Below are positions 3,142 through 17,377 of a stretch of DNA of 17,377 bases, piece by piece. The notes beneath the pieces are model-generated. The model was not told where the DNA came from and did not search any database. It was given only the letters and a program-made list of their open reading frames with translations. Positions within the stretch are counted from its first letter, which is position 1, and each line of letters begins with the position of its first letter. The translations under genes and the position numbers were made by a program. Source of the stretch: Candidatus Woesearchaeota archaeon (GTDB lineage Archaea; Nanobdellota; Nanobdellia; Woesearchaeales; DSVV01); assembly GCA_023267795.1 (NCBI GenBank), contig JAHFMP010000005.1:1-17377 (forward strand). Reading direction: 5' to 3'.

Positions 3142-6100
3142 GTGAAAAAACAAAGAATGGGATTTCGAATAGTTTTTTTCCTTACACTTCTACTTTTGTT
3201 TAGTATTATTTCTCTTAATGCTCTTGCAGGCTATTGTGCAAATCCCGACGTCAGCAGCTCAAGCTGGTACTGTAGCAGTAGTGGTGTAAGCCAGAGCGAT
3301 TGCTGCCCAAGCAGCTCAAGTGACTATGGAACATCTGGTGTCCCTGCTAGCTATAGTGAATGTGTTAGCGATTATTATTCAAGCACAGATAATACTGTTG
3401 GTGGAAAATGCAGTGATCTTGGCTGTTGTTATCTGGATACAGATGCAACATGTGATGATTCTTCTTTAGAAGGTTCCTGTAAATATGATGAAGGAACATG
3501 GGATAGTAGTGGATGCAGTGCAATTTCTGAATGTACTGAAGGATGTTGCATATATTATGAAGGAACTGCATTTACGTATGAAATAAGTTCTCTTGGATTT
3601 TGTGAAAATGTTGGTGGAGATTTTGACAGCAGCAAAACTGATGCAAGTTCTTGTGCAATTCTTGCTGCAACATATACTGAAGCAGACTTAGAATGCAGTG
3701 ATAGTGTTGATAATGATGCTGATGGTGCAATAGATTATCCGAATGATGCTGATTGTAGCAGTGCAACAGATGCCAGTGAAGCAACAACAACAGCTGCATG
3801 TTCTGATCTTGTTGATAATGATGGGGATGGTTCTATTGATACAGCTGATGCTGGTTGTTGTGGCAGTAGCAGCACTGCAAATGAAGAGCTTTGTGAACTT
3901 GCTGCATGTAGCACTGAAGAAATAAGCAGCAGCTGTAATTGTTATTCTGCAGATGCAGGAATTCCTAAAGAATATGGAACACTCTGTGAAGCAGGAAATT
4001 ACTGTTGTGACGGCATTTGTCAAGCTGAAACGTGTAGTGGTACGTGCAGTTCTGGAGAGCGAGAATATTGTGGTGTTGATAGTACAACACTGTGTTTGAT
4101 GTACAAGACATGCGATGATGGAACATGGGGACCATGCGATAAGACAAGTGCCTGTGGTTTAGAGCCAGAAGTGTGTGATGACAGCTATGATCAGGATGGA
4201 GATGGATTGAATAATTGTGATGATCTTGATTGTTATCAAACAAAATGTAGTGATGGGTCTGATACAACTGCTTGTGGAGATAAAGGATATTATTATGGAG
4301 GTGCTTATGTATGCTGCAGTACTAATGATATTAATGATTGTGAGGGTGATGGTGTTTTTGAGACATGCGGAAGTTGTGCATGCAGTACAACACCAATAGA
4401 TCCTGAAATTGATGCTATTGAGTATACACTTGGTGCGCCACAATTAACTATAAGTTGGACATTGGCTTGTGCTGATGTTTCATTTTTGCTGAGAAGATGT
4501 ACAGGTACAGAATGTGTAAGTGATACAACAGACTATACAGATGCAGAGAGAGAAACTGCATTTCCTGAAGTAGTGAGTGAAACTATAGAAGATGAATGGA
4601 AATATACTGATGCTACAATTGGCGTGAATCAGCAATACTGTTATGTGGTGCAAGCACTGTACACTGATGGAACAAGTACGTATTCTGAACCAATATGTGT
4701 TGATGATAGTGGAGATGCATGGTGTCAGCAAATGGCTACAAGTGAGTTTTGTCTTGACGAGTATGGAGGTATGACAGAGGAATTAACATATCGTGTTGGC
4801 TGCACATCTGAAAATAAAATAAGTTATATTGACAGCTGCCGCTCTTCTTATGGTTCTGATTATATTTGTACAGGACCGTATAGTGATGGAACAACACGCT
4901 GTGCATATCAAAGTAATTGTGCAACCTGTGGAGATCCACTTGGACTTTATGCAACACTGCTTTATGGCTCTGCAAGTTATGCAGGAAGCACAACACTTTG
5001 CTCTGACATTCCTACGTGTTATTTTGACTACACGATCACTACTCTTGATGCCTATGAAGAATGTGCAGCTGTGAGCAGTTGTTATTCTTATGCTAGCCAG
5101 AGCGCCTGTGATGAACAATATAATGAAAATGGGTATAACAATAAATGTTTGCAGCGAGATTGTGAATGGATTGATAGCAACAGCAATGGAATTGCAAATG
5201 ATGGTATCTGCAAAGAAAAAACAGCAGACTATGCACGATGTGAAGCATGCAATGATGCAGTGCATAATGGTATTTTTGATGCTTGCACACAAGATCGCTG
5301 CCAAGAATTTGGTGTTGATAGTGCAGATTGCTGGCTCAGTGGCTTAACAGAACAATGTACAGATATTGCTGACTTTACATGTACTGCGTATGAAGATGCA
5401 ACAAGCTGCAGAGGAGATTACAATGTAGTAATTGATAAAGAGACAAATGAAGTTGCTGTTGCAAGTGAGGATGCTCTTGGCATTGGACTTTGTTATTGGA
5501 ATGGAGAAAATTGCTATAAAGATGCAAATGGTGATGGTGCAGCAGATGCTGACCAAGAAGATATGACTGCACCAACAACGGCTATTCTTTCTCCTGAAAA
5601 GACAAAGACACTTAACATTACACTTCTTGCAAGAGACCTTAATGCTGATGGCAGTGAAGGATCTGGAGTTGCTGCAACATATTATTGTTATACTGATGAT
5701 AGTAGCAGCTGTTATCCTGATACTCTTATTGATTTAGAGAGCACTGGACTTGGCATGATAACATTAGGAGATGGAAATGGTGTATATGACTTTTATTACT
5801 ATTCTATTGATTATGCAGAAAATCTGGAAATTGTACAGCATAAAATTATAAATGTTGACAAAAAAGCTCCTGAAATTGTCATTAGTTACTATGTCAGTCC
5901 TGACACAAGCGATCCGTATGATGCTTCTTCCTTAACATTTGAAATTATAGTAGATGAAGAAGCATATTGTATTGATAGATTTGAGACAGGAGAATCTTCT
6001 TTTGAAAATGAGTTCAATGACCATTTTGTTGCAAAATATTCTGACCTTTCTGATGGAACTTACCTGTATACAGTTACCTGCACTGATAGTTTAGGAAATA

Positions 6101-9100
6101 TAGGAAATGCATTTGTCCTTGCACAGGTTGATGCAGATACTGCAATCTTTGACAGTAATCCCGCGCTGTATACTGATAGCAGTTCTGTCACACTCAGTGT
6201 AAAAACATTGCAGGATGGAACGTGCGGATTTAGTGAAGGAACAGAAGAAGAAAGCTTTGAAGCATTAGAAGAGGGATTTGAAAAACAAGATGAAGATGGA
6301 TATTATCTTCACACGCGAGAATGGACAATTAATGATAATGGCTTATATTTCTTTGATGTCAAATGTGAGCTTGATGATGGAACAGTGCATGACGATGAAA
6401 TTGAATTTGTTTATGATGATACTGCACCAGCAACAGATATTGTGGATAGTTTTGGAAATACGTTTGATTTCAGCAGCTTCTATAATGGAGAGCAGCTTGC
6501 TGTGTATTTAGCATGTACAGATATGCCAGATTATGGTTTTGGATGCAATGCAACGTATTATTGTGTTGATACAATAGAGTGTGAACCAACAGAATTGTAT
6601 GATCCAACAAATTCTATAGACTATGATCTCAGTGATGTCAGTAGACTCAATGTGTGTTACAGCAGTATTGAAAATACATATGCTGGCATGGGTGGTTTGG
6701 CAGAAGAGGTTAGATGCACTGAGATTAAAGTTGATTTCTATGATTCTGAATTAATTATTACTAATCCTTATGATGGAGAAGCAGTATTTTTGCCATACGT
6801 TGCTGTTACTGGCTCTGTTGATGATCCAGATGCAACAGAAGGAACTGCAATAAACACTGTTACTATTACTGTCCTTGATACAAATGGAAAAGAAACAACA
6901 TATACGAATATTGATGCAGATGATGGATTTAGCTCTACTATCCCAATTACATTAGAGAATAATGATACTGAATATAATTATATTACTGTTTATGGAACAG
7001 ATAGGTCTGGTGCAACAACAGAAGCCCAAACAGTGCGCGTCCGTTATACAACTGAGTTAGGTGATGCTGCAATATGGATAGTAGAACCGACTAATGGTGT
7101 TTCTACAAACACTTCTTTTGACATTGTTATTGGAACATATTTAGAAGCAGAAAAATGTGGGTATAGCAAAAATAATGCTGCACTGAATAAATCCATTGCA
7201 ATGAAATCTGTTGCGAGTGATACAGGAGGAGAATATCACTACAGTGCAGCATATAGTATTGATGCTTCTAAAAATGGAATTGAAGAATATGTGTACATAA
7301 AATGCCTGCTTGTAAATGCTGTTGAATATGCAGAGACTCTTACAATAGAATATGATGGCACAACACCTGTTATTGAAGCTATAGAAATTCTTAATAGTGA
7401 TGGAAAAAATCCTCCAAGCATTGTAGAAGAGCCTCTTGATCCAGAGGTTCAAGTGACAACAGATGACAGAACAAAATGTAAATATAGTTTTGATGCAAGT
7501 GATGGATTCAATACAGGCATGACAAAATTTTATGCTTATGATAATACGAGCTACAATACTGTCAATAATGTAACGATTGCTGGGCTTGATGACCTCCATA
7601 GTTATACTATATATGTTGCGTGTCAGAATGGTGCTTATATGACTTCAGAAACAGAAACATTGAGCTTTGCAATAAACACCAGTGCAGCATCTGGAATGTA
7701 TCTTATTTCTCCAGAAGCAAGTAGCAGTAGAAGTTTTATTATAACAATTGGCACAACACGCACTGCAAGCAGCTGCACTTATGGCAACACGAGTGAGAGC
7801 ATAACTACAACAATGAGTGCTGTCGCAGAAAAAGAATTCAAAACAGGAACAATTACTGTTGCAAGTGATGGTAATTACACGTATTATTTCACCTGCTGGT
7901 TTGTGGATGGAGAAAAAACAGACTACTTTATGTTCCCTGTTGACACTACTGCACCTGTTATTGATTTTATAGAAGATGGAAATGTGAGTTATTCCAATAC
8001 AAGTCTTTCTGCAGCATGGAGTGCAAGTGACAGTTTGACAGAAATTATTTATTATCTTTATTCTATTGGAACAAAACCTGGATATAATGATACGTTCTCA
8101 TGGACCACAACAACAGCAGAAGAAGTTATTGTGGAAAATCTTTCGTTGAAAAATCAAAGCACCTATTATTGGAATGTAAAAGCAGTCAATGAAGTGAGCT
8201 TGTCGAGTACTGTGAAGTCAAGTGATGGAGTATTTATTGATGCAAGTGGTTCTGGAACTGCAAAGGACTTGAATGCATCCACTATAGCAGAAGTTACATA
8301 TCATCCTTGCTCAAATGGAGAAAAAGATAGTGATGAAACAGATATTGATTGTGGAGGAAGCTGTGATAGTTGTGAAGCAGGAAAAGATTGCCTTGTTGCA
8401 GATGATTGCAGCAGCATCAACTGTGTTTCAGGAATTTGCCAAGAGTCAAGCTGCTCTGATAGCATTCAAAATCAAGGAGAAAGTGATATTGATTGTGGAG
8501 GCAATTACTGTGACAGCTGTGCTCTTGGTCAGAGTTGTACCTATCATAGAGACTGTGCTTCTGGCTATTGCAGCAACAAAATGTGTACAGAATCTGCATG
8601 TAATGATGGTATCAAAAATGGAGCAGAAACAGGTACTGACTGTGGTGGAAGTTGTACTCCATGTGAAGAAGTAGTATTGCAAAAATCTCCTCCTGCATCA
8701 AAAGATGATGTTGATAAAGAAGGAATGAGTATTTGGCTCTGGCTTTTGCTTGTTTTTTGTCTCTTGATTGTTGTGATAGGTGGTTATTATGGATACATTG
8801 CATATATGAAAAAGAAAGGAAAACTTCCTGCAAACTTTGAAGCGTTTGGGAGTATTGGCAGAAAATTCCCTGCATTGGCACTGCCAAAAATGCCGCAAAA
8901 AATCCAGATGCCTACATTTCAGAAAACAGGACTGCAACAGAAAATATTGCAGCAAAAACAGCAGATGCGAGAAAAACTTTTTGGTGCATTTGAAGATAGA
9001 AAACAATCAGCTGTTTCAGAAAAATTACCTGAACAAAAACCGACTATTAAACAAAGAGAGATAAAATTAGAAACAAAAGAAAAAGTTGGTATCAAAAAAC

Positions 9101-9168
9101 CAATAAAAAAACAGCCATCAAAAACATTTACTGCACTAGAACAACTTATTAAAGAAAAGAAAAAGTAA
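3142..9168 (+). CDS. Giant cysteine-rich, secreted and membrane-anchored surface protein
   Basis: The 2008-residue product starts with a signal peptide (basic MKKQRMGFR, then a hydrophobic core, cleavage probably near residue 30). The N-terminal third is packed with cysteines, including CC-containing modules, and has Asp-rich calcium-type loops (thrombospondin-3-like) at about 185 (CSDSVDNDADGAID), 220 and 345. A fibronectin-III-like stretch follows at about 421-520. The central region (about 815-1700) is Ig/FN3-like beta sequence with short Tyr/Cys motifs. Three DCGG cysteine repeats begin at 1723, 1771 and 1820. One membrane helix (about 1864-1888) is followed by a Lys/Gln-rich cytoplasmic tail of about 120 residues. 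The topology is large outside, small basic tail inside. The start is GTG; an ATG at codon 6 is an alternative. It leads the pilin-like gene cluster. The likely role is adhesion or host contact, by inference. Domain limits are approximate. Confidence 0.92.
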   Translation: MKKQRMGFRIVFFLTLLLLFSIISLNALAGYCANPDVSSSSWYCSSSGVSQSDCCPSSSSDYGTSGVPASYSECVSDYYSSTDNTVGGKCSDLGCCYLDTDATCDDSSLEGSCKYDEGTWDSSGCSAISECTEGCCIYYEGTAFTYEISSLGFCENVGGDFDSSKTDASSCAILAATYTEADLECSDSVDNDADGAIDYPNDADCSSATDASEATTTAACSDLVDNDGDGSIDTADAGCCGSSSTANEELCELAACSTEEISSSCNCYSADAGIPKEYGTLCEAGNYCCDGICQAETCSGTCSSGEREYCGVDSTTLCLMYKTCDDGTWGPCDKTSACGLEPEVCDDSYDQDGDGLNNCDDLDCYQTKCSDGSDTTACGDKGYYYGGAYVCCSTNDINDCEGDGVFETCGSCACSTTPIDPEIDAIEYTLGAPQLTISWTLACADVSFLLRRCTGTECVSDTTDYTDAERETAFPEVVSETIEDEWKYTDATIGVNQQYCYVVQALYTDGTSTYSEPICVDDSGDAWCQQMATSEFCLDEYGGMTEELTYRVGCTSENKISYIDSCRSSYGSDYICTGPYSDGTTRCAYQSNCATCGDPLGLYATLLYGSASYAGSTTLCSDIPTCYFDYTITTLDAYEECAAVSSCYSYASQSACDEQYNENGYNNKCLQRDCEWIDSNSNGIANDGICKEKTADYARCEACNDAVHNGIFDACTQDRCQEFGVDSADCWLSGLTEQCTDIADFTCTAYEDATSCRGDYNVVIDKETNEVAVASEDALGIGLCYWNGENCYKDANGDGAADADQEDMTAPTTAILSPEKTKTLNITLLARDLNADGSEGSGVAATYYCYTDDSSSCYPDTLIDLESTGLGMITLGDGNGVYDFYYYSIDYAENLEIVQHKIINVDKKAPEIVISYYVSPDTSDPYDASSLTFEIIVDEEAYCIDRFETGESSFENEFNDHFVAKYSDLSDGTYLYTVTCTDSLGNIGNAFVLAQVDADTAIFDSNPALYTDSSSVTLSVKTLQDGTCGFSEGTEEESFEALEEGFEKQDEDGYYLHTREWTINDNGLYFFDVKCELDDGTVHDDEIEFVYDDTAPATDIVDSFGNTFDFSSFYNGEQLAVYLACTDMPDYGFGCNATYYCVDTIECEPTELYDPTNSIDYDLSDVSRLNVCYSSIENTYAGMGGLAEEVRCTEIKVDFYDSELIITNPYDGEAVFLPYVAVTGSVDDPDATEGTAINTVTITVLDTNGKETTYTNIDADDGFSSTIPITLENNDTEYNYITVYGTDRSGATTEAQTVRVRYTTELGDAAIWIVEPTNGVSTNTSFDIVIGTYLEAEKCGYSKNNAALNKSIAMKSVASDTGGEYHYSAAYSIDASKNGIEEYVYIKCLLVNAVEYAETLTIEYDGTTPVIEAIEILNSDGKNPPSIVEEPLDPEVQVTTDDRTKCKYSFDASDGFNTGMTKFYAYDNTSYNTVNNVTIAGLDDLHSYTIYVACQNGAYMTSETETLSFAINTSAASGMYLISPEASSSRSFIITIGTTRTASSCTYGNTSESITTTMSAVAEKEFKTGTITVASDGNYTYYFTCWFVDGEKTDYFMFPVDTTAPVIDFIEDGNVSYSNTSLSAAWSASDSLTEIIYYLYSIGTKPGYNDTFSWTTTTAEEVIVENLSLKNQSTYYWNVKAVNEVSLSSTVKSSDGVFIDASGSGTAKDLNASTIAEVTYHPCSNGEKDSDETDIDCGGSCDSCEAGKDCLVADDCSSINCVSGICQESSCSDSIQNQGESDIDCGGNYCDSCALGQSCTYHRDCASGYCSNKMCTESACNDGIKNGAETGTDCGGSCTPCEEVVLQKSPPASKDDVDKEGMSIWLWLLLVFCLLIVVIGGYYGYIAYMKKKGKLPANFEAFGSIGRKFPALALPKMPQKIQMPTFQKTGLQQKILQQKQQMREKLFGAFEDRKQSAVSEKLPEQKPTIKQREIKLETKEKVGIKKPIKKQPSKTFTALEQLIKEKKK
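8308..8664 (+). repeat. Three tandem DCGG cysteine repeats inside the giant gene
   Basis: Units start at residues 1723, 1771 and 1820 (spacing 48-49). Each begins with Cys-x-(D/N)-(S/G)-x-(K/Q)-(D/N), continues with (E/D)xxTDIDCGG or a close variant, and then has a CxxC pair. Units one and two also carry a second block of the type CxxxxDCxSxxC. The third unit is cut short after CTPC and leads into the membrane helix. Such repeats occur in extracellular stalks of bacterial and archaeal surface proteins. Confidence 0.8.
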
Positions 9169-9169
9169 T

Positions 9170-9760
9170 ATGGAAAAAAAAGAAATAAACAACTATTCAT
9201 TAAAATCTTGCACGAACGAAGTGAGTACAAGACTTTATACTAAAGCACAAACTGCAGAAATTTTCTTTTTTATCCTTGCAATAGTGATTATAGGATTGCT
9301 TCTTTTATTTGGAGTGAAATATATTATGGAACTTGGAACAAAAGTGAATCAAATTGATATTGTACTCTTTAAAACAGATTTAGAATCATATGCAAATGAA
9401 ATAAGACCTGTGTATGGAAAATGGAAAAAACTCGAGATTGATGTTCCGGCAGGAATTGAAAAAGTTTGTTTTGTCCAGCATGAAACATTTACTGAAAGTC
9501 CATTGTATCAACAACAAGAAGGCATTTGTTTAAAAGAAGATGCTGATTATAATTTTCTGATGTGCAATGCGTGGCAGGAAGACAGCACTAGAAATGTGTA
9601 CACTGATCCTTTTGATGAACTAGATGTTGGTATTAACCTTGGTGCAATTGATGTTGGAGATGCAAACACCAATTATCTCTGTATAGATGCTTCTTCGCAT
9701 TTTATAAGAATAAAAATGACAGGAGAAGGAGATAGAGTAGTCATAGAAGCATGGGAGTAA
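9170..9760 (+). CDS. Pilin-like single-span protein with an unusually long N-terminus
   Basis: The 196-residue product has the class III-like junction TKA|QTAEI at residues 24-31, followed by a hydrophobic helix (about 31-52) and a soluble, probably external domain of about 140 residues with four cysteines. Other members of the cluster start only about 5-20 residues before the junction; here there are 26. Most of the extra sequence is encoded by a hairpin element (9201-9237), suggesting that the extension was gained by insertion. The gene starts one base after the stop of the giant gene and has no clear ribosome site, so translation is probably coupled. The external domain is not a family I can name. 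Confidence 0.85.
   Translation: MEKKEINNYSLKSCTNEVSTRLYTKAQTAEIFFFILAIVIIGLLLLFGVKYIMELGTKVNQIDIVLFKTDLESYANEIRPVYGKWKKLEIDVPAGIEKVCFVQHETFTESPLYQQQEGICLKEDADYNFLMCNAWQEDSTRNVYTDPFDELDVGINLGAIDVGDANTNYLCIDASSHFIRIKMTGEGDRVVIEAWE
9201..9237. repeat. Hairpin element inside the 5' end of a pilin-like gene
   Basis: Arms TAAAATCTTGCAC (9201-9213) and GTACAAGACTTTA (9225-9237) pair at 11 of 13 positions around the loop GAACGAAGTGA (9214-9224). The loop closely matches the loop of the hairpin at 2181-2253, read on the opposite strand (GAGCGAAAGTGA). The arms are unrelated between the two. Both could be copies of one small dispersed element. Confidence 0.55.
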
Positions 9761-9770
9761 CTATGGCAAC

Positions 9771-10847
9771 ATGGCAATAGCAAAAAACAAGAATGGACAA
9801 ATAGATGTTCAGTTTCATTGGATATTCATTATACTCATTGGTGCAATCATTCTTTCTTTTTTTGTTGGCCTGTCTGTTTGGTATAAAAATACACAGGAAC
9901 AAAAAAATACTGCAAATATTGTTGTTGCATTGGATTCAGTGCTTGATACTGCAAAAGAAAGCCCAAAAACAGCACGAACAACTACTATTCCAGACATTAC
10001 TCTTTCATTTACCTGCTCTTCAGATGAATGCAATGACTATGGCTGTGCTTCTGCGTTTTCAGGAGGAGGAATATCTCATGGAACAGAAACAGAAATTCTT
10101 TTTTCTCTAAAAGAGCTTTCTGGAAATGACTTAATTACATGGGCACTAGAATGGAAACTTCCTTATACAATTTCAAATTTTTTGTATGTCACCACAGACA
10201 ATGTGCGTTATATCTTTGTTTATGATGAAGAGCATAAAGAACTTGCCTATGCTGTTACTTCGCTGCTTGCAGAAAATGATTATCTTACAAAAGAAACAAT
10301 AAAAATAGAAGAGCCTTCTGATTTTGCAATTATAGATAAAAATGATAATTTTGTGAGAATTGTTGCATTTTTGGATTCTGACAGCTTGTCTGAAACTACA
10401 GTAGAAACTGCTCTTGGAGAAAACAGTGCTAATAACAAAAAATGGGATATTATCTATGTTGATGGCAGTGAAGAAAGTGGAACTATTTATTTTTCTGAAG
10501 AAAGTGTTTCAGTTTCATATGCAGGACTCCCTCTTTTGCTGGGTGCAATTTTTTCTGCAGATAGAGATTTTTATATGTGTAATGTCAAAAAAGCTGCACT
10601 TCAGGGAAAAGTAGTGAGTGCAGTTTATTTAGAGAGAACAAAAGCATTGTATGATGCAGTAAGCGCTGTTCCTGAGAAAAGCTATTGCAGCTATTATTAT
10701 GGACAAGATGTTCAAGAAGCAATAACAACTATAATGGAAAATGTTGATATACTTTTGTCAAATTCCATTGCATTCTCTTCTGCTGTTCAAGAGTTGATGG
10801 ATAACAATAATTATGCTGTTATTAAGAATTGTCCACGGGTGTATTAA
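9771..10847 (+). CDS. Pilin-like single-span protein with a large external domain
   Basis: The 358-residue product begins with a short basic stretch and the junction KNG|QIDVQ (residues 8-14), then a membrane helix (about 16-36). The rest is a soluble domain, with a cysteine cluster C82-x4-C87-x4-C92 and later cysteines near the C-terminus, as expected for a disulfide-containing external domain. It lies ten bases after the preceding gene and directly abuts the next start. An ATG at 9763 in another frame stops after five codons and is not used. The family is not recognised, but the N-terminus, Gly-Gln before an Ile/Phe-rich helix, is typical of the cluster. Confidence 0.85.
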   Translation: MAIAKNKNGQIDVQFHWIFIILIGAIILSFFVGLSVWYKNTQEQKNTANIVVALDSVLDTAKESPKTARTTTIPDITLSFTCSSDECNDYGCASAFSGGGISHGTETEILFSLKELSGNDLITWALEWKLPYTISNFLYVTTDNVRYIFVYDEEHKELAYAVTSLLAENDYLTKETIKIEEPSDFAIIDKNDNFVRIVAFLDSDSLSETTVETALGENSANNKKWDIIYVDGSEESGTIYFSEESVSVSYAGLPLLLGAIFSADRDFYMCNVKKAALQGKVVSAVYLERTKALYDAVSAVPEKSYCSYYYGQDVQEAITTIMENVDILLSNSIAFSSAVQELMDNNNYAVIKNCPRVY

Positions 10848-11354
10848 ATGCAGACAAAAATTCGAACAAAAAAAGCACAAAAAGCACAGCTCAAAACAGG
10901 AGAAACAATTATTGTACTAATTATCTTTTTTATTCTTCTTGCTGGTGGCATGATATTTTATGCAAAGATCCAAAAGTATACAACTTCACAAAAAAAACAA
11001 GAAACAGCAGCAGTTGACGCAATTTCTATAGAACAAAGAATTAGACATATGACAGAGATTCCATGCAGTATTGATGGAACTATTATATTTGACTGCTATG
11101 ATCTTGAAAAAATTAAGGGGTTGCAAAAAACAATTCCAGACTACATGCTATATTACAACAGTGTTATTTTTAAGAATTCGAAAGTAACAATAACATCTGT
11201 GTATCCTGTTGCAGAAGAGATTTTGCTTTTTGATGCTGAAACCAGAGAAATTAGTACTGGGACTCAACCATACAGAACTCCTGTCACTCTTTATGATCCA
11301 CTGACTAATATGTATAGTTTTGGTTATATTACTATCGAGGTGTTTACTTCATGA
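10848..11354 (+). CDS. Pilin-like single-span protein
   Basis: The 168-residue product has a strongly basic N-terminus (KIRTKKAQKAQLK) and the junction KTG|ETIIV at residues 16-23. A membrane helix follows (about 20-41) and then an external domain of about 125 residues with only two cysteines (PCSIDGTIIFDC), likely a disulfide. The ATG directly follows the stop of the preceding gene, and the stop overlaps the next start by ATGA. An alternative processing site KKA|QKAQ near residue 10 is less likely because the helix begins after TGE. Function is inferred only from its place among pilin-like genes. Confidence 0.85.
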   Translation: MQTKIRTKKAQKAQLKTGETIIVLIIFFILLAGGMIFYAKIQKYTTSQKKQETAAVDAISIEQRIRHMTEIPCSIDGTIIFDCYDLEKIKGLQKTIPDYMLYYNSVIFKNSKVTITSVYPVAEEILLFDAETREISTGTQPYRTPVTLYDPLTNMYSFGYITIEVFTS

Positions 11355-11872
11355 AAAAAAGAGGACAGGTAGAGATTATAGGGTTGATGATTATAGTAAT
11401 TATTCTATCTCTTGCACTGCTTTTTGTTATTAAAGTAGTTTTTACAAAGAAAAATCCTGATGTTTCGCAGAATTATCAAACAAACACACTTGTCGAAGCA
11501 TTTGTGAATACTCTATTCCAAACATCTTCTGGCTGCACCACTGATACCACAATTCAAGATTTGCTTGTTGACTGCGCAAAAAATCCATTCTCTAGTGGAA
11601 CAATAATGTGTAGTGATGGAAGAAGTTCTTGTCAATATGCAAATGAGACAATTGCATATATTTTGCAACAAACAATTGACAAGTGGGGTTTTCAAAACAC
11701 AGGTTATGAATTTGTTGCTGTTGCACCTCCAAATCAACAAATAGTGTATTATGGATCAGGAAATCTTTCTGCATCACTGGCTGGAGAGACCACTCCATTC
11801 ACTTTGCGCTTATATCCCAGCCAGCAATATTTACATGTCTATTTATGCATTGGAGGATGCGGATTGACGTAA
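11351..11872 (+). CDS. Pilin-like single-span protein, KKRGQVE type
   Basis: The 173-residue product begins MKKRG|QVEIIGL, a clean class III-like start with glutamine after the glycine, then a helix to about residue 27. The external domain has cysteines in pairs, including CTTDTT near residue 56 and the C-terminal CIGGC. The gene overlaps the preceding one by four bases. Its stop is followed by a TATA-like box for the next gene, so it may end the first transcription unit that starts at the giant protein. Confidence 0.87.
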   Translation: MKKRGQVEIIGLMIIVIILSLALLFVIKVVFTKKNPDVSQNYQTNTLVEAFVNTLFQTSSGCTTDTTIQDLLVDCAKNPFSSGTIMCSDGRSSCQYANETIAYILQQTIDKWGFQNTGYEFVAVAPPNQQIVYYGSGNLSASLAGETTPFTLRLYPSQQYLHVYLCIGGCGLT

Positions 11873-11874
11873 CA

Positions 11875-11882
11875 TTTAAATA
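11875..11882 (+). promoter_or_regulatory. Possible internal promoter before the 11918 gene
   Basis: TTTAAATA lies 43 bases before the ATG at 11918. A start of transcription about 25 bases downstream, near 11905, would place the ribosome site GAGGTG (11906-11911) at the very 5' end of the message. It is plausible, but the match is modest in AT-rich DNA. Confidence 0.4.
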
Positions 11883-11917
11883 GAATAAAACAGGCTGTTT
11901 GCAAAGAGGTGGTTCTT

Positions 11918-12232
11918 ATGAAGAATATAGGAAAAAATATATGGAAAAAAGGACATGGTATGTCTATAAAAGGACAAGGAATGTCTATTAATGTGATTAT
12001 TATTGCAGTTCTTGCATTATTGGTTCTTGTCGTGTTGGCATTTATTTTTACAGGCAAGATTGGAAAGTTCAGCACCACAACAGCAAACTGTGAAGCGATT
12101 AGTGGGGGAAAATGTGAAATTGACTGTTATTATCTTGGAAGCAACTATGTACAGGATAGTTCCAGAGTTTGTTTAGACAACAATGGAGAAGTTGACACTA
12201 CAGAAGTTTGCTGTGTTAAGGTAGGTGGATAA
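11918..12232 (+). CDS. Small pilin-like protein with one six-cysteine module
   Basis: The 104-residue product has a duplicated basic/glycine stretch (residues 11-24), then a helix (about 25-45) ending FTGKIGKF. A compact C-terminal domain has six cysteines: C58, C66, C70, C85 and the pair C98-C99. Order and the closing CC match the doubled module of the 15832 product, and the helix exits are alike (AFIFTGKIGKF and AFVLTGRISIF), so the two are paralogues. The ATG at 11918 is chosen because GAGGTG (11906-11911) lies six bases before it; the in-frame GTG at 11909 overlaps that site. A disulfide-knotted cap on a pilin-type helix is the likely architecture. Confidence 0.88.
   Translation: MKNIGKNIWKKGHGMSIKGQGMSINVIIIAVLALLVLVVLAFIFTGKIGKFSTTTANCEAISGGKCEIDCYYLGSNYVQDSSRVCLDNNGEVDTTEVCCVKVGG
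11948..11989 (+). repeat. 21-bp tandem duplication within the signal region
   Basis: Two adjacent 21-bp units (11948-11968 and 11969-11989) differ at three positions and encode KGHGMSI and KGQGMSI. The duplication doubles the presumed peptidase junction (Gly before Met) just before the membrane helix. Confidence 0.8.
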
Positions 12233-12262
12233 ATTTTGTTTTCTTTTTACTACAAAAAAAGC

Positions 12263-12400
12263 ATGCAAAAGACACGATTGTTTTTGAGTAAGAAAGCAAT
12301 GAGTGAAGAATTCCTCATTGGCTTGATATTATTTATTGTTGCATTGCTTGTAGTAGTCTGGATTATTAAAAAAAAATTAGGCAGTATTCTAGGGTTTTGA
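12263..12400 (+). CDS. 45-residue minimal pilin-like protein
   Basis: The small frame encodes a basic start, the junction SKKA|MSEEF (residues 9-17), a helix (about 17-36) and a ten-residue tail (KKKLGSILGF). It consists of little more than the signal region and helix. The charged EE pair just after the junction resembles the conserved glutamate of pilins. It ends one base before the next ATG. The start is uncertain: there is no ribosome site before ATG 12263, while a TTG at 12236 lies seven bases after AGGTGG and would add nine residues. A T-rich stretch at 12234-12249 separates it from the preceding gene. Confidence 0.7.
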   Translation: MQKTRLFLSKKAMSEEFLIGLILFIVALLVVVWIIKKKLGSILGF

Positions 12401-12401
12401 G

Positions 12402-13205
12402 ATGAACACAAAAGCAGATATGAATACAAAACAGCTTATGGTTCTGATTATTGGCATTGTAATATTTCTGATTTTTGTTATGTTTGGAACAAAAGTCTAT
12501 GAATTTATGAAGAGTAAAGGAGATGTTGAAGGATGTCGATTGAGTGTCTTGGCTGCTGCACAATCTCGTTTTGCAGGAGAATCTTCAATTGATTTAGATT
12601 GTCCTAGAAAACAGTTAGTTCTTTCTGAAAAAAGTTATACTGTTAATAATAAAGAAAAGAAGTATGGAAGCAAAGAATATACAACAAATATAAAACTAGT
12701 CTTTGCTCAAGAAATGGCAGAATGCTGGAAGAAAACAGGAGAAGGCTATGTGAATGTTTTTGAAGAAAGTGTTTTGAAAAACAATAATGCCTGTTTAATA
12801 TGCAGTCATATTAAATTTTTAGAATCGCCTAATGAAAATATTGAAACACTAGCAGAATATATAAAAGAAACAAAAATTCCAGCAACTGAATCACAATTTG
12901 AAGATACTACATATTATAACTACATTAACAAAGATTGGAAACAAAAAGCATTCTCTGATGACAGCATTTTTGTCCACATTCTTCAAGCACTTGGAATAAA
13001 TTATGGAACAAAAGAGATTAATACAAATATTTTACTTGATAATGAAGGAGAAATAGATTTTACTAAAGAGTATTATATTCTACTTCTTGGTGTAAAAAAA
13101 GGAGCATTTGAGTTTTATAACGAGGACACCTATTTTATTGTTGTAGGAAGAACAGAAACACTAACAGATCCTAAAATGAGATTTTGCGACTATCTTTACA
13201 ACTAA
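12402..13205 (+). CDS. Pilin-like protein with CW...CxxC domain (paralogue of the next gene)
   Basis: The 267-residue product has the junction TKA|DMNTK (residues 3-10), a helix (about 11-29) and an external domain with C45, C67, C108 and the CxxC pair C131/C134. The stretch ECWKKTGEGYVNVF followed by CLICS is matched in the neighbouring product by SCWYKIGEGKYEVF and CVICS, with cysteines at nearly equal positions. The two are therefore tandem duplicates of one family. The first 12 codons are themselves a rough repeat (MNTKAD, MNTKQL), so the start could be codon 7. It has no glycine-rich C-terminal segment, unlike its paralogue. The family name is unknown to me. Confidence 0.87.
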   Translation: MNTKADMNTKQLMVLIIGIVIFLIFVMFGTKVYEFMKSKGDVEGCRLSVLAAAQSRFAGESSIDLDCPRKQLVLSEKSYTVNNKEKKYGSKEYTTNIKLVFAQEMAECWKKTGEGYVNVFEESVLKNNNACLICSHIKFLESPNENIETLAEYIKETKIPATESQFEDTTYYNYINKDWKQKAFSDDSIFVHILQALGINYGTKEINTNILLDNEGEIDFTKEYYILLLGVKKGAFEFYNEDTYFIVVGRTETLTDPKMRFCDYLYN

Positions 13206-13206
13206 C

Positions 13207-14058
13207 ATGATCAACAAAAAAGCAATGCAAATTGAATTTTTGATTTACTTTTTGATTTTACTTGTTATATTAGTTATTTTTTTACTCTATTATCAAAAAA
13301 CAGCAGAACTCAGCACTGCAAATACTATTGCAGATCAGTGCAGACAAAGTATTACTGTTAATGCAATTGGTCATATTTCTGGACTACAGCTCTATGATGA
13401 AGTACAATGTCCTGTAGAATATACCACCATAGAAGAAACTGAAAGTGAAGAGATTAAAAAAGAGGTTGCAAATAGCCTTGCCAGCTGCTGGTACAAAATA
13501 GGAGAAGGCAAATATGAGGTATTTGATACAAATATTATGAAAACACAATACTGTGTGATCTGCAGTGTTTTAGAATTTGAAAGTGCACCTGATGAAATAA
13601 CAGGACTTGTTTCATATTTAGACCAGAATACTGTTCCTGTTCTGTTTACTGCTGCTACTCCAATGAGTTATACTGATTATTTACAGGGATTTCGTTCTGA
13701 TGCAAACCTAAAACTATTGTATAATCAAGAAACAAGAGATGTTATTTACACAGAAAATAATTATGCAGCTGTTTTCCTGTATGGTAAAAAAGGATATCTC
13801 AATCATATAGCTGCAGGAGCTGTTGGTGCAGGCACTGGCTTTGTGACAGGAGGTATTTTGATTTTTTCAGGAGTTGGCGTACCTGCTGGCCTGTTGGTTG
13901 CTGGAACAACAGTTGCAGGCACTGCTGCTGGATTTGCACTTGGCAGCGACAAAACAGCTGACTGGGAAAGTGCTGTTGCGTTATATCCATATAAAACAGA
14001 AGATTTAAAGAAACTGGATTGTGATATACTTCCAGCAGAACAAAACATTGTTTCTTGA
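13207..14058 (+). CDS. Pilin-like protein with CW...CxxC domain and a glycine-rich hydrophobic insertion
   Basis: The 283-residue product starts MINKKA|MQIEF, a good class III-like junction, then a helix (about 10-29). The external domain has C45, C68, C94 and C116/C119, matching the 12402 product. After KKGY (near residue 198) it contains about 48 residues made mainly of Gly, Ala, Val, Ile and Thr (for example AAGAVGAGTGFVTGGILI), which look like a glycine-zipper hairpin able to enter or cross a membrane. This block is absent from the paralogue. The gene starts one base after the preceding stop. It is the last gene before the toxin-antitoxin-type insertion. Confidence 0.88.
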   Translation: MINKKAMQIEFLIYFLILLVILVIFLLYYQKTAELSTANTIADQCRQSITVNAIGHISGLQLYDEVQCPVEYTTIEETESEEIKKEVANSLASCWYKIGEGKYEVFDTNIMKTQYCVICSVLEFESAPDEITGLVSYLDQNTVPVLFTAATPMSYTDYLQGFRSDANLKLLYNQETRDVIYTENNYAAVFLYGKKGYLNHIAAGAVGAGTGFVTGGILIFSGVGVPAGLLVAGTTVAGTAAGFALGSDKTADWESAVALYPYKTEDLKKLDCDILPAEQNIVS

Positions 14059-14072
14059 ATTATAAGTAAAAT

Positions 14073-14092
14073 TTATAAACAGATGTTTATAA
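14073..14092. promoter_or_regulatory. 20-bp palindrome over the TATA box of the MNT-HEPN pair
   Basis: TTATAAACAGATGTTTATAA has two perfect 9-bp arms around a central GA. Its left half contains the TATA-like TTATAAA, and the ATG of the nucleotidyltransferase gene lies at 14103, about 27 bases after the centre of that box, so the message is probably leaderless. A repressor on this palindrome would block TATA-binding protein. The encoded protein has a winged-helix domain, so autoregulation is the simplest reading. Confidence 0.65.
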
Positions 14093-14107
14093 TATTAAAC
14101 AGATGTT
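14077..14107 (+). repeat. Direct repeat of 11 bp, 20 bp apart, spanning promoter and start codon
   Basis: AAACAGATGTT occurs at 14077-14087 and again at 14097-14107. The second copy contains the start codon ATG. The offset of exactly 20 bp is two helical turns, so a dimer bound at the palindrome could contact the second copy from the same face. Confidence 0.55.
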
Positions 14108-14615
14108 GAAAGTTTTTGCTGATCTCAAACCTTTTTTTGAAGACAATTATAAAAGGATTAGTGTCAGGGAATATGCAAAAATCATAGGTTTAAGCCCTGC
14201 TACTGCATCAAAAATTCTTGAAAATTACCATAAGGAGGGGATATTAAAGAAAGAGAAGGATAGGATGTATATTTACTATTTTCCACAAAGAGATTCTATT
14301 CTCTTTCGGGATCTCTCTAGATTACACTGGAGATTTGTTTTTGAAAGAATAGGATTATTGGCATATTTCGAAAAAGAGTTTGCTCTTCCTATTGTTATTT
14401 TATTTGGATCCTGCGCAAAGGGAGAAGTTGATCCGCATTCAGATATTGATATTGCTATTTTCAGTCCTGCAAGAAAAGAATTGCGCTTCAATATATTTCA
14501 GAAAAAATTAAAACGAGAAATTCAGGTTTTTAGATTTGTATCACGTGACACTGTAACAAATAAAGAACTTCTGAACAATATTTTTACTGGATATATACTT
14601 TTAGGGAGTTGGTGA
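14103..14615 (+). CDS. Winged-helix / minimal nucleotidyltransferase fusion (MNT antitoxin type)
   Basis: The 170-residue product has an N-terminal winged helix-turn-helix (about 15-60; ISVREYAKIIGLSPATASKI as recognition part) and a C-terminal nucleotidyltransferase of the Pol beta superfamily. The active-site signature is G102-S103 ... S113-D114-I-D116 (FGSCAKGEVDPHSDIDIAI). The third carboxylate expected on a later strand is not obvious (REIQVF near 138-143). In MNT/HEPN modules the MNT protein is the antitoxin and in studied cases modifies HEPN with AMP; here it may also bind its own promoter. It is followed after one base by the HEPN gene, whose ribosome site lies in its last codons. It interrupts an otherwise uniform pilin-like cluster, suggesting insertion. 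Confidence 0.92.
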   Translation: MLKVFADLKPFFEDNYKRISVREYAKIIGLSPATASKILENYHKEGILKKEKDRMYIYYFPQRDSILFRDLSRLHWRFVFERIGLLAYFEKEFALPIVILFGSCAKGEVDPHSDIDIAIFSPARKELRFNIFQKKLKREIQVFRFVSRDTVTNKELLNNIFTGYILLGSW

Positions 14616-14616
14616 T

Positions 14617-15027
14617 ATGGACTGGCAAGAATGTCTTAGAAAAAGAATTGTCAAGAATACAAGTATAGATTCTCATAAAATTACCTCTATTCTGGAAATT
14701 TCTAAAGAAAAACTAAAAGTAGCACTGCTGTTAGAAGATAAACATTATTATGGAAAGCTCCCGCTTCTCTATGAAACGTTACGAGAACTTCTTGAGTGTC
14801 TTGCATTACAACACAGATATAAAATTTACAATCATGAATGCTATACTGCATTTTTGAAAGAAATCATGCATGAATCTTCATTAGGTGATTCCTTTGATAA
14901 ATTCAGAATTTTGCGAAATGGAATTAATTACTATGGAAAAAAGATTACCTTTGAAGAGGCACAAGAAATCATGATACAAATGATTGAATTTATAAAGAAA
15001 ATAGAACAGAAATTAGTACTAAAATGA
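14617..15027 (+). CDS. HEPN-domain protein (toxin partner of MNT), catalytic His replaced by Tyr
   Basis: The 136-residue all-helical product fits a HEPN domain: helix with LLYETLRELLECLALQ (50-65) and a late motif FRILRNGINYYG (96-107). Active HEPN ribonucleases carry Arg-x4-6-His. Here Arg100 is followed at +5 and +6 by Tyr105 and Tyr106 and there is no histidine, so RNase activity is doubtful. GGTGAT at 14611-14616 overlaps the end of the MNT gene and serves as ribosome site. Its stop overlaps the ATG of the following pilin-like gene (ATGA), so the module and the downstream cluster share a transcript. It may act as a binding or regulatory partner rather than a toxin, which is inference. 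Confidence 0.88.
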   Translation: MDWQECLRKRIVKNTSIDSHKITSILEISKEKLKVALLLEDKHYYGKLPLLYETLRELLECLALQHRYKIYNHECYTAFLKEIMHESSLGDSFDKFRILRNGINYYGKKITFEEAQEIMIQMIEFIKKIEQKLVLK

Positions 15028-15158
15028 AAAACAAAAAAGGAGACATGCCATACTGGATGGTCATGCTGATTTCGCTATTGCTTGGATTAGTGGTAATTCT
15101 TGGCATTATTGCAATTGAAAAAAATAAACTATTTGGACTTTTGGAGTGGTTAGGATGA
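15024..15158 (+). CDS. 44-residue minimal pilin-like protein
   Basis: The frame begins MKNKKG|DMPYW, a class III-like junction, then a helix (about 10-31) and a short tail (KNKLFGLLEWLG). There is no external domain. The ATG overlaps the HEPN stop and the TGA overlaps the next ATG, so translation is coupled on both sides. Its tail resembles that of the next product (TTKLTEWIEKNIGV), and both resemble the 45-residue protein at 12263. A scaffold, minor subunit or assembly factor is possible; function is not known. Confidence 0.8.
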   Translation: MKNKKGDMPYWMVMLISLLLGLVVILGIIAIEKNKLFGLLEWLG

Positions 15159-15295
15159 ACAAAAAAGCAGAAATGAACTGGATGCTGGTTTCTGTTACTG
15201 TTGCTGTTGTTGGTATTCTTATTTTTGGCTCTTTTGCAATATTTTCAAAAACCACGAAACTCACTGAATGGATAGAAAAAAATATTGGTGTTTGA
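15155..15295 (+). CDS. 46-residue pilin-like protein ending at an in-frame TGA
   Basis: The frame begins MNKKA|EMNWM, has a helix (about 10-32) and a short tail. It stops at TGA 15293-15295, but the same frame stays open for a further 179 sense codons. Taken alone it resembles the 44- and 45-residue neighbours and could be a genuine minimal subunit. Taken with the following sequence it is the N-terminus of a 226-residue protein cut by a nonsense codon. The start is secure through the ATGA overlap. Confidence 0.7.
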   Translation: MNKKAEMNWMLVSVTVAVVGILIFGSFAIFSKTTKLTEWIEKNIGV

Positions 15296-15835
15296 TTTGG
15301 ATTAGAAGAAACAACTACAACACCAATTGATGAAGAACGAATTGATAAAAAAACACTTATTACTATAGATACACTAGACTATGATAAAGAAAGTGGCTCT
15401 TGGATAGAAAAACAAGGATATGGTCAAGGATGGAATCTTTATAAAACTGTTCTTGAAGTTCAAGCTGTTGGTCCTGGATTTACAGGACAACAATCACAAG
15501 TTTCAAAAACAGAAACATTATTAGAAAATCAAGCATTAGAAATAATTCTCAACTCTGACAAACTTCATGGAAAAATAAAAGTGAATGAAAAAACGTATGT
15601 TCATACTAATTTATACAATAATTTTTGCTGGTTTGTTGCAACAAACAGTGATTTTACGTATTATGGTGAGTATTATAATGACAATAATAAAAACTGCCAA
15701 AAAGATGCAGATGAACCTTTTACAGACAGCAATAATAATAATCAATATGATGCTGGAGAAATAATAACAGCAAAAGATCTTGCACAACTCATTATTAGTG
15801 ATCTTTTTCAAGATGCAGAGGAAGAATCCTCATGA
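15155..15835 (+). pseudogene. Pilin-like protein with Asp/Asn-rich calcium loop, interrupted by one in-frame TGA
   Basis: From ATG 15155 to TGA 15833-15835 there is one reading frame with a single internal stop (codon 47, TGA at 15293-15295). The 95 codons after it (15296-15580) hold no ATG, GTG or TTG start in frame, yet the translation is protein-like and soluble in character (GWNLYKTVLEVQAVGPGF). The C-terminal part has an Asp/Asn-rich loop of calcium-binding type (DADEPFTDSNNNNQYDAGE), followed by a helix. With the short first part it makes a normal cluster member: signal junction, helix, external domain. The next gene overlaps its end by ATGA, as expected if the frame was one gene. Possible causes are a recent nonsense mutation (for example from TGG or CGA), programmed readthrough, or a sequencing error. 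TGA is the normal stop of several neighbours, so a changed code is unlikely. Confidence 0.75.
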
Positions 15836-16188
15836 ACATACACAAACAGAGAAACAAAAAAGCAGAAATCACAGTAGAGACAATGGTTCTTATAGCACTT
15901 GCACTGATTTTTCTTATTGTTGTTGCATTTGTGCTGACTGGAAGAATTAGTATTTTTAACAAAGCAGTAGGAGATTGTAAAAGCAAAGCAGGTATTTGCA
16001 CAAGCGCAAGTGAATGCACACTATTAGACGGCACAGAAACTGGCTTTGATTGCAGTGACACAACAGAAATCTGTTGTATGAATACCTGTAAAGGTGCTGG
16101 TGGAAGATGCACTTCTGATACGAAATGTAGCAATGAACAACTCTACACTGTTGCATGTGAAAATGAAAACGAAATATGCTGTAAATAA
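15832..16188 (+). CDS. Pilin-like protein with two tandem six-cysteine (knottin-like) modules
   Basis: The 118-residue product begins with the junction NKKA|EITVE (residues 8-16; Glu at +5 as in classical pilins), a helix (about 17-36) and FVLTGRISIF. The outer part contains twelve cysteines in two matching modules: C49, C56, C62, C74, C81-C82 and C86, C93, C99, C109, C116-C117. Spacings are x6, x5, x11, x6, CC and x6, x5, x9, x6, CC; both close with EICC. The module is paralogous to that of the 11918 product. A disulfide-locked surface cap is likely. The start overlaps the preceding stop. Confidence 0.9.
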   Translation: MNIHKQRNKKAEITVETMVLIALALIFLIVVAFVLTGRISIFNKAVGDCKSKAGICTSASECTLLDGTETGFDCSDTTEICCMNTCKGAGGRCTSDTKCSNEQLYTVACENENEICCK

Positions 16189-16202
16189 AGATAGGTAGAA
16201 TA

Positions 16203-16451
16203 ATGACAATGTTGAAACAGAAAAAAAAAGCAGACATGAATTTTTGGCTTGTTATGCTTGTGCTTGCTTTGATTTTTATGGTACTTCTTTTTTTTGTGAT
16301 GAATAAAGTGTTTAGCAATTGGAGCAAAACAACAGAAAAAGTACAGCAGGATATTAACAAACAAACAAAAGAAACTGACATTTTTGGGAATTTAGAATCT
16401 GATTCTGATAAAACAACTGATAATAACGAAAAGAACAGTGTAACAGGATAA
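16203..16451 (+). CDS. Small pilin-like protein with a polar, probably disordered tail
   Basis: The 82-residue product starts at ATG 16203 (GATAGGTAG just upstream as a weak ribosome site; a second ATG at 16209 is possible). The junction KKKA|DMNFW is followed by a helix (about 15-35) and a hydrophilic tail rich in Asp, Asn, Lys and Thr without cysteines. It ends one base before the next ATG. It resembles the minimal subunits with an added flexible tail. Confidence 0.82.
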   Translation: MTMLKQKKKADMNFWLVMLVLALIFMVLLFFVMNKVFSNWSKTTEKVQQDINKQTKETDIFGNLESDSDKTTDNNEKNSVTG

Positions 16452-16452
16452 C

Positions 16453-17061
16453 ATGAAACAAAAAAATGTTGGAAAAAAAGCAGAGACAGATATGTTGTCT
16501 GCGTTGACAAAAATAGTGCTCGTTATCATAATTCTTATTCCTTTGTTTTTTATTATGAAAAAACTTGTTGGTATTTTTATTCCAGAAGAAGTTGAATCAA
16601 CGAAAAGAAATTTTGATCAGCTTGTTGCAACACTTCAAAATCTTCCTGAATACAGCAACATTGCAAGCTATCCTATTTTTATTGATGAAAAATATGCAAT
16701 TGTTGGATATAAAAGCAACAGCAATGCAATTGGTGGGATGTGCACACAATACGCCATTGGTTCTCCATATTTCAACAAAAAACCAGAGGCATGTGGAATA
16801 GGAGATCAAGGTTGCATTTGTTTATGCAAAGCAACAAATGACTTTACAAAAATCTGTCAGGACAATGATGAAGTTGTAAAATGTTTTGGATATAATGAGT
16901 TAAAAGAAGATTTTTCATTCCAAGGATGTTCTTCTGAAACAGCACATTGTGATTTTGCAATTCTTAAAGGAAAGAAAGAAATTCAAACAATTTGGCTAGA
17001 GAGAGGAGAACTTTCTTACACAATATCTAGTGTTCCATGTGAACAAACAACTCCATCTTAA
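16453..17061 (+). CDS. Pilin-like single-span protein with a cysteine-rich external domain
   Basis: The 202-residue product has the junction GKKA|ETDML (residues 7-15), a helix (about 16-41, with a break at LIPLFF) and an external domain with about ten cysteines, including the dense CGIGDQGCICLC and later paired cysteines up to near the C-terminus. No catalytic motif is seen. It follows the preceding gene by one base, and its stop is followed by a new TATA box, so it may end this transcription unit. Confidence 0.87.
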   Translation: MKQKNVGKKAETDMLSALTKIVLVIIILIPLFFIMKKLVGIFIPEEVESTKRNFDQLVATLQNLPEYSNIASYPIFIDEKYAIVGYKSNSNAIGGMCTQYAIGSPYFNKKPEACGIGDQGCICLCKATNDFTKICQDNDEVVKCFGYNELKEDFSFQGCSSETAHCDFAILKGKKEIQTIWLERGELSYTISSVPCEQTTPS

Positions 17062-17073
17062 TTCCTGCAAAAG

Positions 17074-17081
17074 TATATATA
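17074..17081 (+). promoter_or_regulatory. TATA box for the last gene
   Basis: TATATATA lies about 30-37 bases before the ATG at 17111. A start of transcription near 17105 would give an almost leaderless message and makes the in-frame upstream ATG at 17081, which lies within the box, unlikely as a start. Confidence 0.5.
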
Positions 17082-17110
17082 TGAATTTCAACAAAATCCT
17101 TTGCGAACGT

Positions 17111-17377
17111 ATGATGAAAAAAAGAGGAGAGTTAAGCCATGCAGTTATTATAGAGATTGTTCTTGTTGTACTTATTAGTGCTGCATTTTTTTATTTTCAT
17201 GAAACAGTAAAAAATAATACGCTTTTTGAAAAATCATACGCTAGTAGAGATATTGCGCTCTTGCTGGAAACAAGCCAAAGCGTGCCTGGAGATGTTGAAG
17301 TGTATTACAGCCAACCATCATTTGATATTGGAAAGTACAGTTATGGTTTTACAGATAATCTATTGCGCGTCTATGAA
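17111..17377 (+). CDS. Pilin-like protein, KKRGEL type, cut by the window edge
   Basis: The first 89 codons are visible and the frame is open at the edge. The product begins MMKKRG|ELSHAVIIE (the second ATG at 17114 is equally possible), followed by a helix (about 11-30, VIIEIVLVVLISAAFFYF) and the start of an external domain without cysteines so far. The junction with glutamic acid after glycine fits the cluster rule. It shows that the pilin-like gene series continues beyond the window, possibly under its own promoter at 17074-17081. Confidence 0.8.
   Translation, partial: MMKKRGELSHAVIIEIVLVVLISAAFFYFHETVKNNTLFEKSYASRDIALLLETSQSVPGDVEVYYSQPSFDIGKYSYGFTDNLLRVYE

Follow-up and report, generated by a model that had tools for sequence, protein, structure and literature searches.

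A pilin-like gene in a Candidatus Woesearchaeota genome is interrupted by a single in-frame TGA that occurs in none of the 24 homologues recovered here. We interpret this stop as either a sequence error or a nonsense lesion private to this genome, and we regard programmed readthrough as unlikely. The reading that we prefer, and to which we give about an even chance, is that of a real, recent, and private nonsense lesion at the linker of an ordinary pilin-like gene. The weights given here and below to a lesion, an error, a short form, and readthrough are judgements rather than computed values.

The interrupted gene

The window, which is the whole 17,377-nucleotide stretch of DNA analysed, is contig C106 of a 151-contig genome (G000; 995,997 bases, 89.39% complete, 0.46% contaminated). 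The features of interest, with counterparts in two other genomes of the same genus (G001 and G002), are:

15155..15295, + strand: 5' piece of the interrupted pilin-like gene (46 codons and TGA), with an N-terminal KKAE-type segment and a hydrophobic helix; aligned with 23 homologues
15293..15295, + strand: in-frame TGA at codon 47, in this genome only; a sense residue in homologues
15296..15835, + strand: 3' piece (179 codons and final TGA), with a globular domain, an IDEERI motif, and a D/N-rich stretch; the first 95 codons lack a start
15284..15327, no strand: 9-bp perfect inverted repeat, arms 15284-15292 and 15319-15327
15024..15158, + strand: upstream 44-residue pilin-like gene, ATGA overlap; 46- and 53-residue counterparts directly upstream in G002 and G001, respectively
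15832..16188, + strand: downstream Cys-rich pilin-like gene, ATGA overlap; counterpart directly downstream in G001, start only in G002 (contig end)

Translation of 15155-15835 on the forward strand yields 46 codons, the TGA at 15293-15295, 179 sense codons, and a final stop, and thereby bears out a preliminary description of this DNA in which the frame was open except for that TGA. The same description held that the 95 codons after the TGA contain no usable start, and the first in-frame ATG, GTG, or TTG is indeed the GTG at 15581. A start-free run of this length is not rare on its own (of the 55,061 codon positions tested in long frames, 5,540 are followed by one). The ATGA overlaps described at both ends are real and involve the genes at 15024-15158 and 15832-16188.

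A codon model trained on non-overlapping long frames of this genome, which include the window's own 179-codon frame and some of which may not be genes, gave the downstream frame a score of 0.257, compared to a long-frame mean of 0.154 (sd 0.079). The other five readings of the downstream stretch all scored negative in the same model. This coding score, together with homology to unbroken proteins before as well as after the stop, shows that 15155-15835 is one gene and that the split exceeds chance, in agreement with the earlier proposal of one gene split by a single stop.

TGA is an ordinary terminator in this organism. It closes 67 of 231 closed long frames, compared to 125 for TAA and 39 for TAG, and the release factor aRF1 was detected over cut-off in two of the three genus genomes, G000 included (not in G002, which is 82% complete). 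Genome-wide reassignment of TGA is ruled out by this terminator use and by the finding of one clear internal TGA in 311.5 kb. That figure comes from a scan for stop-split genes in 41 stretches (311,544 bases, window included), which flagged this stop and a weak case inside a longer frame. With a looser threshold, 11 cases were returned; besides this TGA, there were nine inside longer frames and a TAA at L052:6276 whose right-hand score was 0.00. The assembly is thus not riddled with false stops, although the scan, which recovers 35.7% of virtual stops placed randomly in long frames, could miss other cases.

Homologues and the privacy of the stop

A profile search of 5.77 billion proteins identified 23 homologues (P0001-P0023) in addition to the window's own 46-residue fragment (P0024). 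When the frame was searched with X in place of the stop, one further homologue (P0025) was added, and the best match had 45% identity. All 24 homologues pass the aligned site with a sense residue, namely D (9), E (6), N (4), G (3), or T (1) in the 23 and S in P0025; neither Cys nor Trp occupies this column in any of the 24. Homologues ending naturally at the stop, which the preliminary description had considered as an outcome that would count against a split gene, were thus not what we found, since the homologues run on. P0001 is the G002 copy ('hypothetical protein HZA99_05515') and P0002 the G001 copy ('HZC31_02210'). P0001 is 47% identical to the window frame with the stop read as X, and the stop aligns with P0001 residue 49.

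A six-frame search of 60 genomes (the organism's own and relatives) with the downstream part of the gene revealed that G000 and both same-genus genomes carry it. In the latter, which are both recorded as Candidatus Woesearchaeota, the gene is an open frame of 235 or 242 codons with matching flanking genes. Because protein collections could hide stopped copies, we also scanned the DNA of 352 genomes of the order in six frames and counted stops. Fifteen of the 352 genomes had any match. Three matches were full-length (G000, G001, and G002), and the TGA was present in G000 only, where the match (G000:C106:15149-15826) spans model positions 2-232 with one TGA inside. The remaining matches in the order cover part of the model, mostly the N-terminal part; one of them, in G122 (model positions 1-53), contains a TAA. 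An internal TAA counted in the G001 match was rejected, as it is the gene's own terminator (the frame at 1501-2211 of L003 ends there).

The 179-residue downstream query alone returned no match from 39 candidates, yet the later profile search found 23 homologues, and we therefore do not read the former result as absence. A pattern scan of genome contigs returned 35 pattern matches, among which G002 contig JACRKI010000145.1 alone was confirmed. No near-identical copy was found in the protein searches, where the best downstream identity was 50% (P0004).

Two irregularities were observed among the relatives. At the end of the G002 contig (L002 2043-2409), both strands encode the same peptide, which is likely an inverted duplication resulting from an assembly artefact. 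In P0017 (346 residues) and P0020 (407 residues), the globular domain apparently occurs twice.

Conservation and predicted anatomy of the protein

The other 23 sequences conserve 39 columns, of which three are changed in the window sequence, compared to 0 to 10 for other members (gaps counted). One departure is a Phe to Val replacement in the codon immediately preceding the TGA, and the other two lie farther along. The terminal branch of the window sequence is the fourth longest of 21 both before (0.49) and after (0.58) the stop. The part downstream of the stop thus shows no decay, and the stop must be false, be subject to readthrough, or have arisen very recently.

The predicted model of P0001 (mean pLDDT 78.9, pTM 0.65) comprises a helix at residues 7-45, a low-confidence linker at 47-57 (pLDDT under 50), and further elements from residue 61. 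According to this model, the stop would fall on the linker after the N-terminal helix, and the short product would be a bare helix. The D/N-rich stretch is possibly calcium-binding. The charged N-terminal segment, processing site, and hydrophobic helix form a layout that, by eye, fits an archaeal type IV pilin or class III signal peptide. The pilin-like label derives from this layout and from the modelled helix at 7-45, and cleavage by a PibD/FlaK-type peptidase and assembly into a filament are putative. P0001, the one full-length member scanned, had no Pfam match over cut-off and none to a pilin model. Sequence searches identified no solved relatives at E under 0.08, and a fold search yielded no convincing match. 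A literature search at the level of titles and the beginnings of abstracts returned nothing on the P0001 family.

A recent lesion as the favored explanation

The window gene resembles the rest of the Woesearchaeota P0001 family in its layout, IDEERI motif, neighbours, and homology on both sides of the site. In contrast to the 24 other members, which all run through the site, it has a TGA at codon 47 and a Val in place of a nearly invariant Phe. It also resembles unitary pseudogenes and interrupted genes in assembled genomes in that a single nonsense codon interrupts a frame that is conserved and elsewhere open; unlike them, it has no further damage, which points to a very recent lesion or an artefact. 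If the lesion is real, it must be very recent, given that the downstream frame is perfectly kept.

Under this explanation, an ordinary pilin-like gene, full-length in relatives and encoding a hydrophobic helix at the N-terminus that a flexible linker joins to a globular domain, would have acquired a nonsense codon. Termination by aRF1 at codon 47 would then yield a 46-residue bare helix, the remaining 179 codons would go untranslated, and the gene would represent either the start of pseudogene life or a strain-level variant. Against a lesion, there are almost no other split genes, so the genome is not pseudogene-rich.

How such a lesion might have arisen is suggested, more weakly, by the 9-bp inverted repeat. 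The last base of its left arm immediately precedes the TGA, and the codon with Val for the nearly invariant Phe lies within that arm. In two reports, template switching between imperfect inverted-repeat arms is described as making clustered changes (PMC7202029, PMC8604942). The lesion may accordingly have been a small multi-base event at the hairpin by quasi-palindrome template switching, and one such event would explain two neighbouring oddities, the stop and the Phe to Val replacement, which both lie at the inner edge of the repeat. However, this idea is post hoc, it concerns one site, and the window is slightly richer in repeats than shuffled sequence, with 21 9-bp inverted repeats compared to 5 to 20 in ten shuffles. 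Of all window positions, 1.06% are no more than 3 nt from the inner end of a repeat of this kind, and another such repeat is located close by (arms 15237-15245 and 15279-15287). No perfect inverted repeat of at least 7 bp with a loop of 3 to 60 was present at the matching place in G001 or G002.

Sequence error as an alternative

It is quite possible, if somewhat short of an even chance, that the organism's gene is unbroken and that the TGA exists only in the contig as a sequencing, consensus, or assembly error. The absence of decay in the downstream half and the fact that every homologue found runs through the site are both expected of an error, and the assembly is in 151 contigs and 89.39% complete. 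The two odd codons are moreover adjacent, and the hairpin could trouble sequencing or assembly. Conversely, one clear split gene in 311.5 kb indicates that stop-making errors are rare, with the caveat that the scan sees about a third of them. The TGA also lies outside any long homopolymer run, and the Phe to Val replacement beside it would require more than one wrong base, unless it is unrelated. The preliminary description had named a nonsense mutation or a read error as simpler explanations than a switch, and we agree.

Truncation and readthrough

A selected truncation, in which the bare 46-residue helix is kept as a small pilin-like subunit beside the 44-residue one, is improbable in our estimation. 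The stop does lie on the linker between helix and globular domain (aligned residue 49 in the P0001 model), and the genes immediately upstream, in the window as well as in G001 and G002, encode natural subunits of similar length. However, no homologue found ends at the site, and the 179 downstream codons, if useless, would be expected to decay and show no such decay. The linker is in addition a small but non-negligible share of the gene, such that the position of the stop may be due to chance. The resemblance that had been pointed out between the short product and the neighbouring 44-residue protein holds for the layout but not at the level of alignment, where BLASTP finds none.

Programmed readthrough or selenocysteine (Sec) insertion at the TGA, which would produce a short and a long form, appears very improbable. 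Two forms would make sense, as the frame beyond the stop is conserved and open throughout and the stop lies at a domain boundary. Archaeal selenoprotein genes, as portrayed in one study, likewise have an in-frame TGA with conserved protein downstream (PMC11227280). The window gene differs from them in that no sought Sec component exceeded its cut-off and no relative has Cys in the aligned column. The components sought were SepSecS, PSTK, and tRNA-Sec. SepSecS was detected in none of the three genus genomes, while the control Methanocaldococcus jannaschii gave a match. PSTK was over cut-off in none of the three, with weak matches below cut-off in G001 and G002. The tRNA-Sec search of G000 stayed below cut-off, its sole weak match being the place where ARAGORN calls a tRNA-Leu. 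G000 is 89% complete, and its 98% complete congener G001 is likewise without SepSecS or over-cut-off PSTK. The gene has no match to a redox family. According to the study cited above, Sec is used among archaea by Methanococcales, Methanopyrus, and Asgard archaea only (PMC11227280).

Nor was a suppressor tRNA or a downstream signal evident. Among 22 tRNA matches in G000 (21 over cut-off), the 15 distinct ARAGORN tRNA genes include none with anticodon TCA, in a set that is incomplete and in which no tRNA-Trp is named; of the seven other matches, four are visible in the Rfam alignments and three are not. In several tRNA genes of G000 (on L014, L017, and L020), the anticodon region seems to be interrupted by about 25 to 57 extra bases, which are probably introns. 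A search of 14900-17377 against Rfam gave four weak matches, none of SECIS type, a class for which archaeal elements may be poorly covered. Folding downstream of the TGA was not clearly unusual, with z-scores of 0.12 (15296-15380) and -1.46 (15299-15420; 21 of 200 shuffles fold as well). The hairpin of the 15284-15327 repeat probably does not act as a readthrough signal, since it is not unusually stable (z -0.89) and is absent from G001 and G002; its left arm, moreover, would sit inside the ribosome at the stop.

The stop-or-readthrough switch put forward in the preliminary description therefore finds no support, given that the stop occurs in no homologue, that the sought Sec components fall below cut-off, and that no downstream structure is clearly unusual. 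A species-specific leaky switch, which would produce mostly bare-helix subunits and few long ones with the globular domain, with no Sec component detected, is very improbable. If it were true, no archaeal readthrough other than that for Sec and pyrrolysine (Pyl) would have been demonstrated before it; these are the only two for which a review reports demonstrated cases (PMC8211752).

As it stands, a single interrupted gene in one assembled genome matters little. It does provide a caution: before relatives are aligned, an in-frame TGA that coincides with a domain boundary can mimic recoding. The gene family itself, with its 24 homologues, IDEERI motif, helix-linker-globular layout, and pilin-like cluster, deserves study more than the stop does.

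Genomic neighbourhood

In both congeners compared (G001 and G002), the neighbourhood is conserved, with a small gene upstream and the Cys-rich gene downstream. About a dozen genes in a run at 9170-17061 of the window encode a short charged start followed by a hydrophobic helix and are pilin-like by eye; no Pfam match over cut-off was obtained for the five of these neighbours that were scanned. The N-terminal helix of an 82-residue neighbour (window 16212-16379) gives a weak match to the family profile (E 1.4e-4), and the small genes in the cluster may be relatives that have the helix in common.

Inside the pilin-like cluster, window 14103-15027 contains a nucleotidyltransferase gene (MntA-like, below the NCBIfam cut-off; PDC-M05A in PADLOC) and a gene for a 136-residue partner with a weak PDC-M05B match. 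A like pair occupies the same place in G002 (partner 40% identical), and G001 is without the pair, its flanking genes being adjacent. Upstream of the cluster, window 3142-9168 encodes a 2008-residue Cys-rich protein with a GTG start and a hydrophobic stretch near the C-terminus, whose sole match is a weak one to an acidic double-disulfide repeat.
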